This document shows positions 9,928-64,000 of a stretch of DNA of 64,000 nucleotides, piece after piece. This stretch comes from Cafeteria roenbergensis (lineage: Eukaryota > Sar > Bigyra > Bicosoecida > Cafeteriaceae), in NCBI GenBank assembly GCA_008330645.1, contig VLTN01000068.1, positions 1 through 64,000 of the forward strand, given 5' to 3'. Made by a program: the position numbers and the translations under genes. The first letter of the stretch is position 1; each line of letters begins with the position of its first letter. Under the pieces are notes generated by a model. It did not search any database, was not told the DNA's origin, and worked only from the letters and a program-made list of their open reading frames with translations.

Positions 9928-12807
9928 TCAGTCGGACTTGGCCACGCGAGGCGCCCGCAGCTTCGGGACCTGCGACGCGCCTCCAGCTGCACCGGTCGGG
10001 GCTGCTCCCCCGACTGGCAGCGCCAGCAAGTCATCGTCCCCGCTCACCCCCAAGTCGGCGAATGCAGCATCAATCGCCGCGTCGCCCCCGTCCTCGCCGT
10101 CGCCATCTGTGAAGCGGAAATCGTCGCCTTCGCCCGGGACCAGAGCACCGTCATCGTCCCACGGCATTGTCTCCTCCTCGGCATCAGCGTCGGCGCGCAT
10201 GGCCTTGTACTCGGCCGAGGCCGGGGCGCCCGCCGAACCGCCTGCCATTGAGCCGCCGAACGCAGGCTTGCCGGACGCGCCCCACCCTGAGCTGCCGGCC
10301 CCGCGCCTGCCAGCCTTGCCGCTCCACCAGTCACGCAACGCCTGCAGGGCCCACAGCGACACCGACACAATGCGGGTCAGCGTGAACCTCATGCACCCCG
10401 CAGTGGCCGGGCCCCACCCCTTGGGCCGGGAGCTTCCCACGGACTGGCTGTACTGCACAGCGCAGAGGCCGATGGCGACGGTGAGGGACCCGATGAGGAG
10501 GATCCAGCGGGAGGGCGCGAGGTTGTGGTGCCAGGAGGAGTCCGGGCACAGCGTGGGGACGCCAGGGTGCGTCACGCCGCCGGCGCACGTGTCCCCGGAC
10601 ACCTTCCGGTAGCCGTCCGTGATCATGTACGTCGCGCCGGCCGGGCAGTTCATGGGGATGGCCGCGGTGGCCGGCACGGAGAGGTCGCGCACGCAGGGCC
10701 CGCCCTGGAGATCGCGCTTGTAGCCGACGTCGCACTCGAAGTCCATCTCCGTGCACTCGCAGTGGGAGAGCTCGCGGCTGCGCTCGAGCTCCTCGCCGTT
10801 GAAGCAGGTGGCCAGGCGCTTGCGGCGCACGTACTGGACCTTGTGGCCGAGCAGGCAGCCGTCCTGGTTGGGCCCGGCGGAGGGGGTCCAGGTCTCGTAG
10901 TCGGACTCCTCCGAGTCGGGAACGTCCACGCCGACGCACGCGCGCTGGTGGAGGTCGGCAAAGTCGACGTGGAAGATGGCGCCGATGCGGGCGGCGTTGG
11001 AGCTCTCCCGCGTGCCGTAGACGAGGAACCGCGTGGAGGTGGCTCCGGGCTCGATCATGATGTTGTCGATGAGCACGGGGGTCGTCGTGAAGTCGTACGA
11101 CTCCCAGGTGGCGCCCTCATCCCAGCTGTACTGGATGGACGTGACCGGGCGCTCGTCGAAGGCCATGACGATGATGCCTCCGTGGTCGCCAAACTCGTAA
11201 ATGTGCGACCCCTCAGCCACCTCGTACCACTCGTGGCCGCCGTCGCGGGAGAGGTAGGTGTTGATGGAGCCCTCGCGGAAGCAGAGGCGGTCGCCCACGC
11301 ACCCAGTGGCCATCATCATGCCCACGGCCGACTCGGTGGCGTAGAAGGGGCCGAACACGTCGGTGACGCCGTGGAGGTGGAGCGAGCAGTGCTTGCCCTG
11401 CGCCGGGCAGCGAATCGGGGCGCCGTTGGCGCGGGTGCGGGGCGGGTTGAGGTACTCCCACACGCCCCCCTTGTCAAAGGTGATGACGGTGCGGACCACC
11501 GGGGTCACGACAGCGCGCTTGGCCTTGCCGCCCTTGGAGGCCGCAGCCTTGCTGGAGGGCGTCGAGTCCTGGCCCATGGAGGAGCTTCCGATGAAGTGCT
11601 GGTCCGCGGCCTCGATCTCGTCTGCGTTGTCGTAGTAGTTGGCCACGTACACGCCCTCAAGGCTCTGCAGCTTCTCGAAGTCGCACTTGCCGTTCTCGTC
11701 GCGGCGGTTGTAGGGCAGGCTGAGGCTGAAGTTGGTGCCGAGGGCGTTGCTGGCGTAGACGTTGCCCCACTTGGACTTCTCGCCAAGGTGGTTGACGTGG
11801 AGGAAGACTGTGCCCTCGGAGGTGTCCAGGATGGTGTACGAGTGCTGGCGGATGTCGTACGGCATGCCGACCAGCCGCGTGTGGCGGCCGCCATCGGACG
11901 AGAGGACGAGGGAGACGTGCTCCGCGCGGGCGTCCACCTGCGCGATTGCGAGGAAGAGGTCCGTGAAGAGGAACCTGTTGCCGCGCTTGACGATGGTGCG
12001 GCTGTTGACGAAGAGGTCCTCGGTGATGAACAGGTCCACGCGGTGGTCCCACTGGCCGAACCGCTGGGTGCCCTTCTTCTCCACGAGCGCGGAGTAGATG
12101 ATGGTCTCCTGGGGGTAGTCGCCCGCCATGTTGTTGCGCATCGAGTGCGCCCACTCGAACTGGACCACGTAGTCGTGGAGCATCTTCCAGTTCTTGCCGC
12201 CGTCCAGAGACGCAAACAGGCGCTTGTAGCACGCGCCCGCCGCTGCGCGGTCGCCGCACCGCTCGCTGAGGCCGGCGGCCAGCATCATGTCCGTGTTCTT
12301 GGGGTGCAGGCGAATCTCGCCAAGCTTCTCAGCGGCGCCGACAGCCTCGTACGTGGCGCCGCCGTCCCGCGTCAGCAGATGCATGCCGTTGTCACCAGTG
12401 AAGAAGACCATGTTGGGGTCCGCTGGGGACTTGATCATGGAGGTGACGGCCTGGATCGTCTCCGAGGGGTGGAACTGCCAGGTGAGCTTCTGGAGCAGGT
12501 GCATCTGACTCACCCACGTCTTGCCGCCGTCCCCGCTGCGGTACAGCATTTTGCCGACCGACTGAACAAACACCGTGTCGCTGTGCTCGTCCCCGACCCA
12601 CGCAATGTCCTGCACTCCGGAGTCGATGATCTTCTCGTTCACTCCGATGGTTGCGGCGGCGGTGTTCACGGACCCGGGGGCCGAGGCTGCAGCTGACGCC
12701 ACTTGGGCTGCCGCGATGTCCGTCTTGAACCCGATCGACGGCTGCGACTGCGCAGAGGCCAGTGCCACGGCGCAGGCCAGCGCCAGAGCGGCGACAACCG
12801 AGCGCAT
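9928..12807 (-). CDS. Sortilin/VPS10 sorting receptor, 959 aa
   Basis: Type I receptor that carries luminal cargo from the Golgi to endosomes or vacuoles, by family. MRSVVAALALACAVALASAQ is a signal peptide. The VPS10 propeller (residues about 40-640) shows Asp-box blades such as YRSGDGGKTW, FASLDGGKNW, YLSRDGGHEW and YSWDEGATW. The Cys-rich 10CC-like module follows (CVGVDVPDSEESDYETW, CECTEMDFECDVGYKR). A single transmembrane helix, WILLIGSLTVAIGLCAVQY, lies near residue 775. The cytosolic tail is acidic and holds DDDLLAL, a DxxLL signal of the kind bound by GGA adaptors. One VPS10 domain is present, as in animal sortilin, not two as in yeast Vps10. Intronless. Confidence 0.94.
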   Translation of the reverse strand: MRSVVAALALACAVALASAQSQPSIGFKTDIAAAQVASAAASAPGSVNTAAATIGVNEKIIDSGVQDIAWVGDEHSDTVFVQSVGKMLYRSGDGGKTWVSQMHLLQKLTWQFHPSETIQAVTSMIKSPADPNMVFFTGDNGMHLLTRDGGATYEAVGAAEKLGEIRLHPKNTDMMLAAGLSERCGDRAAAGACYKRLFASLDGGKNWKMLHDYVVQFEWAHSMRNNMAGDYPQETIIYSALVEKKGTQRFGQWDHRVDLFITEDLFVNSRTIVKRGNRFLFTDLFLAIAQVDARAEHVSLVLSSDGGRHTRLVGMPYDIRQHSYTILDTSEGTVFLHVNHLGEKSKWGNVYASNALGTNFSLSLPYNRRDENGKCDFEKLQSLEGVYVANYYDNADEIEAADQHFIGSSSMGQDSTPSSKAAASKGGKAKRAVVTPVVRTVITFDKGGVWEYLNPPRTRANGAPIRCPAQGKHCSLHLHGVTDVFGPFYATESAVGMMMATGCVGDRLCFREGSINTYLSRDGGHEWYEVAEGSHIYEFGDHGGIIVMAFDERPVTSIQYSWDEGATWESYDFTTTPVLIDNIMIEPGATSTRFLVYGTRESSNAARIGAIFHVDFADLHQRACVGVDVPDSEESDYETWTPSAGPNQDGCLLGHKVQYVRRKRLATCFNGEELERSRELSHCECTEMDFECDVGYKRDLQGGPCVRDLSVPATAAIPMNCPAGATYMITDGYRKVSGDTCAGGVTHPGVPTLCPDSSWHHNLAPSRWILLIGSLTVAIGLCAVQYSQSVGSSRPKGWGPATAGCMRFTLTRIVSVSLWALQALRDWWSGKAGRRGAGSSGWGASGKPAFGGSMAGGSAGAPASAEYKAMRADADAEEETMPWDDDGALVPGEGDDFRFTDGDGEDGGDAAIDAAFADLGVSGDDDLLALPVGGAAPTGAAGGASQVPKLRAPRVAKSD

Positions 12808-59309: not shown

Positions 59310-59664
59310 CCGTCTGAGGCTCGGCAGTTGACGAAGCCGGGGCTGCCGTGTGCGTGCCATTGCGTGTGAACCGGTGATCCGCGAGGCAAGTCCTCGGCAG
59401 GCCTTGGCGTGACATTCGAATCTGCACCGGCAGCGGGGCACGGCGGGCTGTTTTGCACGCAGGCACACTCATTCCGCCGTTGCAATTTCCAATTCAAGTC
59501 TGTGATCAGTCGTGCATCCGCTCTGCTCTGCAAGGAAGCGAGAGGCGCGCTGCCTGATGGGAGGACCGAGAGGGGAGCACTGCACGTCCAGCCGCCCCCC
59601 CTCCCCGCCCTTGCACTATCAGGAGCGCTCAAGACGCTGGCTGGGTCCGCTGCGGCGCTGCTGC
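59310..59664. other. Gap between convergent DENN and fusion-protein genes
   Basis: 355 bases of lower GC than the flanks, with a TTGCAATTTCCAATTC patch near 59481. Presumed 3' untranslated regions. No gene seen. Confidence 0.5.
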
Positions 59665-62600
59665 TCAACGGACGACGTGGTAGAGCGCCGACTCGCCGTC
59701 GTGGCCGGGCCAGTGGCACTGGTCGACGTCGCCCTCGATGATGACGTCGAGCATGAGGCGGTTGAGCACCGCCTCGAACTCGATGACCTGGAGGTCCACG
59801 GGCAGGGCGGAGGGGATGCGCCACACGGGGATGCCCTCGGCGGCAACCATGTCCTCTGCCATGGTGGCGATGCGGCGGTCCGCGGGGCGGCCGCTGTCCA
59901 GCAGCACGACGACGGAGTCAGCCTGAGCGCGACCGGCCAGCGCCGGGTCGCGACGGTGCGAGAGGAGGAGGAGCTGGTGCTTGCCGTGCGGGAACGAGAG
60001 GAAGTCGCTCACGCTGGGGGTGGCGAGGAGCATGCCCTCCTCGAACTTCTTGCAGGCGTTGATGAGGTAGTCGCTGAGGGGCGGCGAGGCCACGAAAGCC
60101 ACGTCACGCAGCGGGGTGGCGCGGGAGGGGATGTCCGACTTCTTCTCGGCGGCGGAGGCCGCCGCAGCTGCCGCTGGGGGGGTGCCGTCCTCCTCCTCGG
60201 ACTCGTCGGCGCCGAACGCGGGCTGGGGGCCGGCGGCGTCGGCGCCGTCCTCAGACTTGCGGAGCAGCCCCTTGGACATGCAGCGCGCGGAGGCGATGAG
60301 GGTCTCGCGGACGGCCTTGGGCACGGGGGCGGCCTCGGCGGCCTCCACCGCGGGGAGCACGATGGCGGGGTCGGGCAGGGACGGGGCGCACCAGGCGCGC
60401 ACGCACTGGTAGACGCGGAGGAAGCCGCAGGCCGGGCCGACCACGCGGACGAGGACGCCGTACTCGTCCTCCATGGGGAAGGTGACGACGGCGCCGCCTC
60501 CGGGGTGGGCGCGCACGGACTGGATGCGCGCGTCCTTGTCGGGGCGGTGGCGCGTGGAGACGGAGGTGAAGAGGATGACGCGGTCGAAGGCGTGCATGTG
60601 GCGCAGGGCGGCCCAGGAGTTGGGGCTCAGGCCCTGGGAGATGACCACCAGGATGGAGCGGCGGCCGGAGCCGGCCGCATCAGTCTGCACGCCGCTTGCG
60701 AGGCGGCCAAGGTGGCTGCCGTCCACGAGCGACTCGGAGCTCTTGGGGGCCGGGGTGCCCGTGGAGGCGGAGCCGGGACCGACGTCGACGTCGAGGAACG
60801 CGGTGAGGGGGGCGAAGCGCGCCGACGCGTCAGTGTGGCGCTGGAGGAGCGACACCAGGTAGCGGCCGTGCGCTTCGGACGACCCCACGCCGGTGATGAC
60901 CCAGTTGGCGGTGGAGGGGTCCACGTCCGCGCCGAAGACGGCGGCCGGGTCCAGGGCGGGGATGTCGGCGGCGGCGCGGGCGGCGGCGAGCTCTTCGGCG
61001 CTGAGCTTGGCGCCGGCATCGCTGCCGGCGCCCGTGGGGAAGGCGGGCACCTCGTCAGAGAGCATGGAGCGGAGGGTGGTGGGAAGGGAGGCTGCGCGCG
61101 CGCGGAGGAGGGCGTGGCCGCGGTCGAGCTCGGCGTCGCCGACGAAGACCCACTCCTTCACCTCCACGCTGTACTGGCGGAGGGCGGCGGCGATGGTGGC
61201 GTGCTGGCCGGAGGCGAGCACCTTGACGGCGGTGGCCCCACGGAGGTGGCGCTGCAGCACCCAGGACGCGGCCTTGAAGTCGCGGGTGTCGGCGACCACG
61301 CCCTTGCGCTGGCCGTCGACGAGCACGCCGCCGAGGCCGCGGCCGCGGCCGTCGTGGAAGAAGAGGGTGACGAGGCCCCACCCGTGCTCGACGATGCGGA
61401 GGATCGACTGCTGGTAGCGCTTCTTGTAGCTGCGGTCCAGCAGCGGGAAGCGGTTGAACACGCTCTCCGAGTGGAAGCGCACCAGCGGCACCGACTTGGT
61501 GGCCGCAGAGGCGGCGCCGGCCTTGCTCGGGGAGGCGGGGGTGCGCGACGCGGCGGCAGCGGCGGCAGCGGCGGCGGCAGCCGCGGCGGCGTTGGTCCCG
61601 GCGGCGGCGCTCGCGGCGGCCGCTGCGGCCTCCCCCTGGTCGGTAGGGGGCGGCTGGCCGATGTCGAGGTCGGTGCCCGGGTCTCCGTACTCGAGCACCA
61701 CGAACTCCTCCGAGGCGACCACGTCGTAGTACACGTTCATGCGGAACCAGAAGACGGCGCAGTCGAGCACCTCGCCGGCGGCGGCCTCGCGCAGCTTGCG
61801 GTCCAGGTCCTCGGGAGAGAGGGCCTTGGCCTCGGCGGACTCGGGGTCAAAGTCGGCAGCGTCGTCGGCGGGGAGGGTGTCCACATCGGCCTGGATCCAG
61901 ACGCGGCCGCGCAAGGGGCGCTCGGAGATGATGCGGACGCCGGCGGCGCGAAGGGCCTCCACCTCGCGGGCGCGCAGCAGCATGAACCCGTCGACCGTGC
62001 CGAGGGGCAGGCTGTAGCTGGACACGTGGATGAAGCGGGGGACGCCGGGCAGGATGTGCGGCACGATGGGCTCGGAGATGCGCACGCCCGCGGCGTCGTA
62101 GACGGAGCGGTCCGCGGTGGCCTGGTCCAGCGTGTGGCCGTAGCGCTTCTTGGACCGGAGGTAGGCGATGTTGAAGCGGGTGGGCCGCGCCTCGATCTTT
62201 TCGGTGCGGGCGATGGGCAGGTCGTGCTCCTTGAACGCGCTGATTTTGTCCGGGTTGTTGGTCAGCATGATCCACTTGGGCGAGATGCCCAGCAGCTTCA
62301 CCGCGTCGGCCACACAGCGGAACTCGCGGTGGTCGGCCTTGAGGCCCAGCTCGCGGTAGATGTCGTAGGTGTTGATCGTCTCGTGGCTGTACTGCACAAG
62401 CATGCGGTCGCGAGACTTGCACACGTACGAGGCGCCGCGGCCCTCGTGGCTCGCACCGTACAGGAAGAAGAGGATGCCCTTGCCCAGGCGCACGATGCGC
62501 TCGAGGGCGCCCTCGAGCTGCTGCACGCAGTCGCAGTCGCGAGCGCCGAGCGTCTCGGACGTGACGCAGCAGGAGTGGACGCGCGTGGCGAGCTCCTCGC

Positions 62601-63370
62601 TGTTCAGATCGCCGTAAGTCAGCGCGAGGATGTAGCCCTTGGCCACCACGTCCTGGTAGATGAACGTGCGCCACGTCACTGGCTTGCCTGCGTCGTCGAG
62701 GATGCTGGTGCGCAGCATCTTTTCGCCCAGGAAGATTGTGGTGCCCGTCATCACCCGCTCGTCCGCTGTGGCCCGAAGGTGGCCGTGCGTCTTGTTGATG
62801 TCCTGGATGGCCTTTGCGGACCGGAAAACGTCGCTGCCGAAGCCGCGAAGCTGCCGCTCGGCCTCCGGGGTAACCGGCAAGTCAGCAGCGGCAGCCGCTG
62901 CTTCCTCGCGGACCTCTGCGCGCGCGCCAAGCGGCACGGGGAGGGGGGCGGCACGCGGCAAAACAAGTCGCGGCGCACCGAAGCTCGCAAGCTCGCCCCA
63001 CTCGTGCCAGCGGCGGGCGCGCGCTGACGGGTCGGGGCGCGGGAGACCGCGGGAGCAAACGGAAATGGATTGCAAAGGGCAGCGCTGCATGGTTTGTGGC
63101 CGCGGCTGGCGGCAGGCGCCCCAGAGCCGACCCAGACCCCCCTCCGGGGGCCCAAACGCACTGCCAGTGCGCATTGCCCTCTATGGGCCGGGCGCGCAGG
63201 CTGGCACAGCCGAACCAGCGCTGCAGCAGCGGGGCCAAAGTCTACCGGCCACAACCTTGACGCCAAGAGGTTCAACAGCAGGGCTCTGGCCAGGGCACGG
63301 GTGGAGCGCGCGGCGGGAACGGCCTCTCACCGCTAAGCATCTTGGGGATCGCAACTGCGGGGGGGTCCAT
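59665..63370 (-). CDS. GTP cyclohydrolase II-like tandem fused to a GlmS-like double SIS region, 1096 aa
   Basis: Exons 63370-63331 (MDPPAVAIPKMLS) and 62915-59665, phase 1; an alternative unspliced ATG at 63174 would add an unlikely leader. Domain 1 (about 40-280) is GTP cyclohydrolase II: RVHSCCVTSETLGARDCDC keeps the three zinc cysteines (C130, C141, C143) with RibA spacing, and KADHREF keeps the Asp and Arg of the active site. Domain 2 (about 395-630) repeats the fold with VRFHSESVFNRF and ADTRDFKAASWVL but without the zinc cysteines. Domain 3 (about 685-1096) is SIS-like: ITGVGSSEAHGRYLVSLLQ, ILVVISQGLSPNSWAALR, then FPHGKHQLLLL and VLNRLMLDVIIEGDVDQ, as in GlmS. No DHBP synthase domain. 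The pathway could be riboflavin, an Urc1-type uracil route, or something new. Confidence 0.85.
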
Positions 63371-63733: not shown

Positions 63734-63892
63734 GTGAGGGTCCGCGAGCGTCGGCCCAGGAGCGGAAAGAGCGCGAAACATGCGCGAGCTCAAGTGTCGC
63801 AGAAACGCGCTGCAGCCCAAGCAACCGCTGTTGCCACGAGTTGTGCGGCTGGGCCTCGGCAAGCGCTTCCATGACGGTTGTGCTGTACGCCC

Positions 63893-63955
63893 GCCCACGC
63901 GCACACGCGCACACGCGCACACGCGCACACGCGCACACGCGCACGCACACGCACG
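63893..63955. repeat. CGCACA microsatellite
   Basis: About ten imperfect CGCACA/CGCACG units in an alternating purine-pyrimidine pattern, of the kind that can adopt Z-DNA. It lies near the right edge of the window. Confidence 0.9.
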
Positions 63956-64000
63956 CTTGACGCCCGATGCCGCCGGCTCGACCTGGATATTGCCCCCGCC

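Follow-up and report, generated by a model that had tools for sequence, protein, structure and literature searches.

We analysed a 64,000-nucleotide stretch of the Cafeteria roenbergensis genome (assembly GCA_008330645.1, contig VLTN01000068.1, positions 1 to 64,000 of the forward strand), hereafter called the window. Its minus strand carries a gene that joins two copies of a GTP cyclohydrolase II (GTPCHII) domain, here D1 and D2, to a double SIS region. The gene lies in an open reading frame (ORF) of 1169 aa which runs from an ATG at 63174 to a stop at 59665. A preliminary description of this DNA, made from the sequence alone, had proposed a spliced protein of 1096 aa, and splice arithmetic reproduced it: exon 63370-63331 joined to 62915-59665 gives a predicted product of exactly this length. 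Residues are numbered here along the 1169-codon ORF; subtracting 73 gives the number in the spliced protein. The architecture proposed in the same description, namely a GTPCHII, a second copy and two SIS halves in one frame, was borne out by a Pfam match for D1, by homologues for D2 and by the fold of a homologue for the SIS part.

The composition of the ORF was then considered. GC content at the third codon position (GC3) reaches 0.93-0.97 in the part beginning at residue 161 and 0.82 at residues 88-160, and residues 1-87 are without a coding signature (GC by codon position 0.76/0.69/0.76). A chance frame or antisense artefact was ruled out by the GC3 values and by the existence of homologues. 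Most of the gene is overlapped by a plus-strand frame of 1171 aa (59512-63027), whose high GC falls at codon position 1. This frame was rejected as a high-GC artefact, its codon composition mirroring that of the minus-strand gene. Bacterial contamination of the assembly is unlikely: the same window matches phosphofructokinase, sortilin/Vps10 and DENN, and the contig is therefore eukaryotic.

D1 matches the Pfam family GTP_cyclohydro2 (PF00925) over residues 167-323, with 110.6 bits against a cut-off of 23.3. Its closest solved relatives are a GTP cyclohydrolase II (2bz0, 6.4e-21) and RibBA (4i14, 3e-19). The zinc ligands are Cys203, Cys214 and Cys216, and Asp281 and Arg283 correspond to Asp126 and Arg128 of the E. 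coli enzyme RibA. Arg257 sits at the position of E. coli RibA Tyr105, which we take to be a catalytic position. D2 scores just below the Pfam cut-off (20.7 bits against 23.3) and is backed by 18 bacterial homologues which align across both copies, the second copy being shorter in one of them (locus L017). It has no zinc cysteines and retains the motifs HSES, DGRGRG and DTRD; the alanine-rich insert which it contains in Cafeteria is not present in the bacterial homologues. Pfam did not find a DHBP synthase domain on the Cafeteria chain.

The SIS region escaped all profile searches. From residue 757 to the end, neither Pfam nor NCBIfam gave a match, PDB sequences gave chance-level matches only (E 0.74 and 1.1), and hhalign of the Cafeteria region alone against GlmS was not significant (P 0.67). 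With an alignment of 20 SIS sequences P was 0.0077, at a probability of just 5%. Pfam SIS, searched in four bacterial homologues, matched only that of locus L016, with 11.7 bits against a cut-off of 25. A single-sequence structure model of the Cafeteria region was poor (pLDDT 36.7). AlphaFold2 modelled the L016 protein from a five-row alignment (A4) with a pLDDT of 82.6 and a pTM of 0.84, and Foldseek found 135 PDB matches to this model at E <= 0.001. Top matches include a putative phosphosugar isomerase (3fj1, 5.4e-12), NagB-II (8eym), the GlmS isomerase domain (3tbf and 7dnr) and the deglycases FraB (9otu) and FrlB (8glr); E ranges from 5e-12 to 6e-10 for 3fj1, 8eym, 7dnr, 9otu and 8glr. Identity to the structures is low, 11-17% among the 50 matches listed. 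The preliminary description had named a failure of profile searches as a reason to give up the SIS assignment. They did fail, and the structure model of the homologue nonetheless has a double SIS fold; as far as a predicted structure can, it settles the fold of the region.

In a joint alignment with GlmS, residues Gly301, Ser303, Gln348 and His504 of that enzyme align with identical residues in all 20 SIS proteins. Position 347 is Ser or Thr, and the Lys603 column holds Lys in 17 of the 20 and His in Cafeteria. The pattern Lys1043-x-x-Glu1046 is present in 20/20 and has the same spacing as GlmS Lys485-x-x-Glu488; it lies near the end of a helix in the model. By this spacing we favour Glu1046 as the probable equivalent of GlmS Glu488, which is presumably catalytic, as is His504.

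Features of the tandem GTPCHII-SIS gene on contig VLTN01000068.1 (positions in the window; residues of the 1169-codon ORF)
Feature	Position	Strand	Evidence and remarks
Exon 1	63331..63370	-	MDPPAVAIPKMLS; predicted by splice arithmetic, with the lack of a coding signature at residues 1-87
Predicted GT-AG intron, 415 nt	62916..63330	-	GTGAGAGG...GCGCGCAG; splice arithmetic and composition
Exon 2, including stop codon	59665..62915	-	carries D1, D2 and the double SIS region
D1, GTP cyclohydrolase II domain	62125..62694	-	residues 161-350; Pfam 7.5e-32
D2, second GTPCHII copy	61123..61761	-	residues 472-684; Pfam 3.4e-4 and bacterial homologues
Alanine-rich insert within D2	61489..61638	-	residues 513-562; alignment with bacterial homologues
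SIS domain 1	60385..60906	-	residues 757-930; motifs GVGSS, SQGLSPN, EDEYGVLVR; homologue fold
SIS domain 2 and C-terminal tail	59668..60111	-	residues 1022-1169; motifs and homologue fold
SIS domain 2 motifs			KFEEG, PHG, WPGH; residues Lys1043, Glu1046, His1063

Relatives of the whole arrangement were looked for in other genomes. Plain-protein scans of viral contigs and of genome contigs led nowhere, as did a search of plasmids with the SIS region and alignment-based scans of viral contigs; the full protein found five phage records, which match D1 only. The search was then weighted to the SQGLSPN and EYG motifs by artificial seed rows. This motif-weighted scan of genome contigs turned up four loci in bacteria (E 2e-19 to 5e-31), distributed as follows: L016 in Opitutaceae, L017 in Deltaproteobacteria, L018 in Opitutia and L019 in an unclassified genome. 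In all four, a tandem GTPCHII gene with a zinc-bearing and a zinc-less half stands directly upstream of the SIS gene, that of L019 being truncated where the contig stops. When an alignment of these four SIS sequences and that of Cafeteria was used as query, 16 of the 387 genomes of L018's phylum proved to have the family, always at E <= 6.7e-65. One of the 16 is L018's own genome; regions from the other 15 were fetched, which makes 19 bacterial loci in all, drawn from few lineages and with mechanical gene calls. A tandem GTPCHII gene lies near the double-SIS gene in 18 of these 19 loci. The gap between the two genes is -92 to 203 bp in 17 loci and 3641 bp in L047; in L041 the fetched stretch, which reaches about 8 kb to either side, showed no tandem GTPCHII.

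Because separate tandem-GTPCHII and double-SIS genes are neighbours in so many of the bacterial loci, we read the Cafeteria protein as the product of a fusion between the two members of a gene pair that is conserved in bacteria. As to history, a gene pair of bacterial type was likely fused in the Cafeteria lineage. At L017 (7794-9812) the double SIS protein, with a tandem GTPCHII upstream, continues into a C-terminal creatininase-family domain (Pfam 1.3e-61), a second kind of fusion in this system. In the open-licence literature (titles and abstract openings, among the matches listed) we found no description of such a protein or gene pair, in keeping with the statement of the preliminary description that the architecture was uncharacterised.

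The active sites were compared over 19 tandem D1 domains (Cafeteria and 18 bacterial) and 10 canonical GTPCHII enzymes. Equivalents of E. coli RibA Cys54, Cys65, Cys67, Asp126, Arg128 and Lys154 are present in every tandem D1. In the same numbering, all 19 also have Arg instead of Tyr105 and Asp instead of Arg64. Of the canonical enzymes, 8 have Tyr at position 105 and 2 have Met. Both Met105 enzymes are Streptomyces plasmid genes, and each adjoins a creatininase-family gene (L006:2976-4573, creatininase Pfam 2.2e-60; L065:1-763, creatininase-family by annotation). A study of Streptomyces coelicolor GTPCHII reportedly connected a Met residue here with the formation of a formylated product, and the two Met-type enzymes may be regarded as candidates for making one. 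D2 has Ser at the first zinc cysteine position in 18 of 19 cases and Pro in L017, and the CDC motif is lacking; the DGRG motif and, in the active-site D-x-R, the Arg are retained in 18/19, with Asp changed to Glu in one. In a tree the 19 tandem D1, that of Cafeteria included, form one clade (support 100/99) separate from the 10 canonical enzymes. Cafeteria D1 is nested within the bacterial D1 on a long branch, and L017 is outermost with a midpoint root. The NCBIfam RibA equivalog TIGR00505 (cut-off 205.85 bits) is missed by both the Cafeteria protein (92.2) and L018 (149.4). The Cafeteria protein also stays below the broad RibA subfamily model NF001591, with 110.4 bits against 148.

To the genes around the bacterial pair Pfam assigned a xanthine/uracil permease, a phosphoribosyltransferase, aminohydrolases, two creatininase-family proteins and a formamidase/acetamidase, and further RidA, amidase, FAA hydrolase and DUF3891. 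Over the 19 loci these families are distributed as follows: amidase in 8, permease in 7, DUF3891 and RidA in 6 each, creatininase in 5 (one being the L017 fusion), FAA hydrolase in 4, formamidase and aminohydrolase in 2 each, phosphoribosyltransferase in 1. Within the 15 fetched regions (about 7 kb per side) the counts are amidase 8, NCS2 permease 7, RidA 6, DUF3891 6, creatininase 4 and FAA hydrolase 4, against 0/20 for every neighbour family in 20 control stretches of 15 kb each from the same genome set. At least two of eight families occur in 9 of these 15 loci and at least one in 12. The same neighbour families recur beside SIS proteins which are 31-35% identical (L044 compared with L052-L054). 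By NCBIfam, the phosphoribosyltransferase of L044 is nearest to hypoxanthine phosphoribosyltransferase models and the aminohydrolases come nearest to a model for a chlorohydrolase, none of these matches reaching its cut-off. This neighbourhood suggests nucleobase breakdown or recycling, probably of purines.

L018 (4059-7887), in a genome of 1.9 Mb, differs from the other loci. A chorismate-binding enzyme and a class IV aminotransferase directly precede the pair, with overlaps, and we read them as putative pabB and pabC; a pabB-like neighbour occurs in L018 only, of the 19 loci. L053 encodes a 189-aa protein (11334-11903) without a Pfam match, weakly similar to a short creatininase-like neighbour at L044, and frames similar to it occur in 4 of the 19 loci. 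Rfam searches, whose inputs did not include L051, gave nothing of use. In the window itself, short CA/CG-rich repeats form a run (63880-63960) upstream of the Cafeteria gene.

The rest of the Cafeteria genome was searched exon by exon, and split genes may escape. It holds a second GTPCHII gene (C34), a DHBP synthase gene (C62, the genome's one PF00926 match), a GTP cyclohydrolase I, FolE (C1), and a two-SIS gene (C58) which we read as GlmS/GFAT. Since GTPCHII, DHBP synthase and FolE are each encoded separately, the ordinary entry enzymes of riboflavin and pterin synthesis exist without the fusion gene. Two further loci carry SIS domains: a 541-aa frame of C50 (L009) combines a PfkB carbohydrate kinase (3e-23) with a SIS domain (1.5e-15), and C154 (L010) has a very similar PfkB-SIS copy broken across several frames.

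Family and fold are established here by sequence and model, whereas substrate, reaction and pathway are matters of inference. The reading that we tentatively favour, at not quite an even chance, is a two-step enzyme on one chain, split in bacteria over two neighbouring genes, which would open a nucleotide and then handle its sugar. D1 would act on a purine nucleotide, in all likelihood one of guanine, and open its five-membered ring. Its product is probably a formylated, formamidopyrimidine (FAPy) type ribosylamino-pyrimidine phosphate, because the catalytic tyrosine position is occupied by Arg; this Arg together with the creatininase partners suggests a formylated ring-opened product. The creatininase family includes a known formamidase, and in bacteria such a creatininase-family enzyme would strip the formyl group. 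D2 would act as a zinc-less partner domain, probably as half of a built-in pseudo-dimer. The double SIS part would then rearrange the ribosylamine (Amadori type) and probably cleave it, leaving ribose or ribulose 5-phosphate and the free pyrimidine.

Related chemistry is on record. According to Yurgel and colleagues, the creatininase-family protein BrbF of Sinorhizobium deformylates AFRPP, the formylated ring-opened product of GTP, to DARoPP, and they call the cyclohydrolase which supplies BrbF still undiscovered (PMC9478397). FrlB, one of the structure matches, converts fructoselysine-6-P to lysine and glucose-6-P (PMC4072780). Taken together, BrbF and FrlB suggest a succession of ring opening, deformylation, and handling or release of the ribose phosphate by the SIS part. 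The idea of the preliminary description that a phosphosugar domain might act on the sugar of a GTPCHII-type product is supported by the conserved bacterial pair and by the SIS isomerase/deglycase residues. The bacterial genes may go as far as to constitute a novel degradation of purines at the nucleotide level, with base uptake, nucleotide formation, opening by the tandem GTPCHII, creatininase-type deformylation and a cut by the SIS deglycase, and with Cafeteria as at least one case in which both core enzymes form a single chain; this pathway is possible, though somewhat less likely than not.

Several observations weigh against the two-step reading and its purine setting. The neighbour queries came from 3 of the 15 loci (L040, L044, L053), so that every count includes one match of a query to itself, and loci related to each other cannot be taken as independent in these counts. 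Five of the 19 loci (L018, L019, L041, L050, L051) are without any catabolic neighbour; L016 has just an Amidohydro_2 gene, and L045 and L047 have just a permease. Either xanthine or uracil can be the substrate in the permease family, and the phosphoribosyltransferase and aminohydrolase matches of L044 and L053 are below cut-off; the choice of purine over pyrimidine is therefore tentative. The bacterial L018 protein clears the RibA subfamily model NF001591 (189.6 against 148 bits), and its pabB/pabC-like neighbours are perhaps a hint at folate. The equivalent of GlmS Glu488 depends on the alignment, MAFFT setting Asn1039 there. Creatininase was not found in the Cafeteria genome by a search whose controls gave a signal in 6 of 14 cases, and a DUF3891 search of this genome gave no match, its controls being silent too. 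As Cafeteria has no creatininase match, deformylation and the steps after it must differ there if the first steps are shared.

Other explanations can be weighed on the same data. The tandem GTPCHII might act on uridine monophosphate in an Urc-like route, with the SIS part replacing the DUF1688 protein and freeing ribose phosphate from an intermediate of ribosyl-urea type. GTPCHII homologues of the URC pathway reportedly open uracil nucleotides, and a xanthine/uracil-type permease, RidA, amidase and phosphoribosyltransferase are indeed among the neighbours. This route is nevertheless unlikely: NF005536, which we take to be the Urc1-like family model, is not among the NCBIfam matches of the Cafeteria protein or L018, though RibA and RibBA models are, and the L044 phosphoribosyltransferase leans to hypoxanthine models, albeit below their cut-offs. 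A DUF1688 search of the Cafeteria genome gave no match, its controls being equally silent, and the Urc1-like assignment which the preliminary description had considered was not upheld. Moreover, the sole characterised creatininase-family formamidase met here works on a FAPy nucleotide (PMC9478397). This domain family and the formamidase serve riboflavin synthesis (PMC9478397), which would suit a side branch towards riboflavin or a flavin-like cofactor, D1 providing AFRPP or DARoPP and the SIS part altering the sugar. We consider this improbable, given that Cafeteria has its own separate GTPCHII and DHBP synthase genes, that no rib gene was seen among 20 neighbour proteins run through Pfam, and that SIS is neither a reductase nor a deaminase. 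In view of the two separate genes, the riboflavin pathway named in the preliminary description is not supported. Synthesis of a specialised nucleoside or pterin-like compound is rather unlikely as well: GTPCHII homologues are said to feed antibiotics such as toxoflavin, but amidase, FAA hydrolase, RidA, permease and phosphoribosyltransferase neighbours suit breakdown better than synthesis. The SIS part could also be a non-catalytic phosphosugar sensor which regulates the GTPCHII part, as SIS domains reportedly often are, and its motifs of phosphate-binding type are conserved. The probability of this is low, since the His at the GlmS His504 position and Lys-x-x-Glu are conserved in 20/20 and there are isomerases, aminotransferases and deglycases among the listed structure matches.

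The pair might finally replace GTP cyclohydrolase I in split form, GTPCHII opening GTP and the SIS part performing the Amadori rearrangement towards dihydroneopterin and folate; chlamydial RibA with TrpF is said to be a precedent. The position of the L018 pair directly after genes read as pabB and pabC speaks for it, as does the distribution of FolE, which 2 of 15 SIS-positive genomes possess, compared with 14 of 20 SIS-negative ones, the latter being the first listed (Fisher p 0.0016). A combined FolE2-FolK-FolP profile (query A5, three sequences per gene) was run on 30 genomes. Of the 19 SIS-positive genomes, 17 have FolE2 (those 15 with G001 and G003), and the remaining two, G002 and G004, have FolE. 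Among SIS-negative genomes, FolE2 was found in 6/6 of the FolE-negative and 0/5 of the FolE-positive ones. FolE2 in FolE-negative genomes thus explains the rarity of FolE in SIS-positive genomes. No credible FolK or FolP was found in G001, G095, G275 and G379 by a query which may miss distant ones. With FolE2 or FolE in all 19 bacterial carriers and FolE in Cafeteria, this replacement is largely refuted and very improbable. The four genomes without credible FolK or FolP may belong to folate auxotrophs in which FolE2 has some other role, or the search may have missed the genes.

On the whole, the observation of the preliminary description is confirmed and its interpretation partly supported. 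New with respect to it are the bacterial gene pair in its fused form, the Arg at the Tyr105 position and the catabolic-looking bacterial neighbourhood. Through the fusion, two uncharacterised proteins of bacteria become linked to a single function; the family models used here would label the bacterial copies as a GTP cyclohydrolase II and an unnamed protein. If the two-step reading is true, it adds a way of dismantling purine nucleotides that retains the ribose phosphate. If the proposed chemistry holds, it also suggests what kind of enzyme might supply creatininase-type formamidases with their formylated intermediate. The pair is a small one, and its two parts are open to direct assay.

Four known systems come closest. 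With GTP cyclohydrolase II (RibA, RibBA) the Cafeteria protein shares, in D1, the PF00925 domain, the three zinc cysteines and the equivalents of Asp126, Arg128 and Lys154; unlike these enzymes, tandem D1 has Arg for Tyr105 and Asp for Arg64, and a second copy lacking the zinc ligands, then SIS, come after it. The Met-type GTPCHII of Streptomyces also have Tyr105 replaced and a creatininase-family gene adjacent, but they are single-domain enzymes with Met rather than Arg, and they cluster with the canonical enzymes in the tree. The GlmS isomerase domain, NagB-II, FrlB and FraB share the double SIS fold, the GxGSS, S/T-Q-G and HG motifs and, in 17/20 of the SIS proteins, the C-terminal Lys; the present family has SQGLSPN where they have SQSGET, and its partner is a GTPCHII, not a glutaminase or a kinase. 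The URC pathway (Urc1, Urc4) likewise uses a GTPCHII homologue to open a nucleotide ring, whereas here the partner is SIS and the presumed Urc1-like model NF005536 is not matched.

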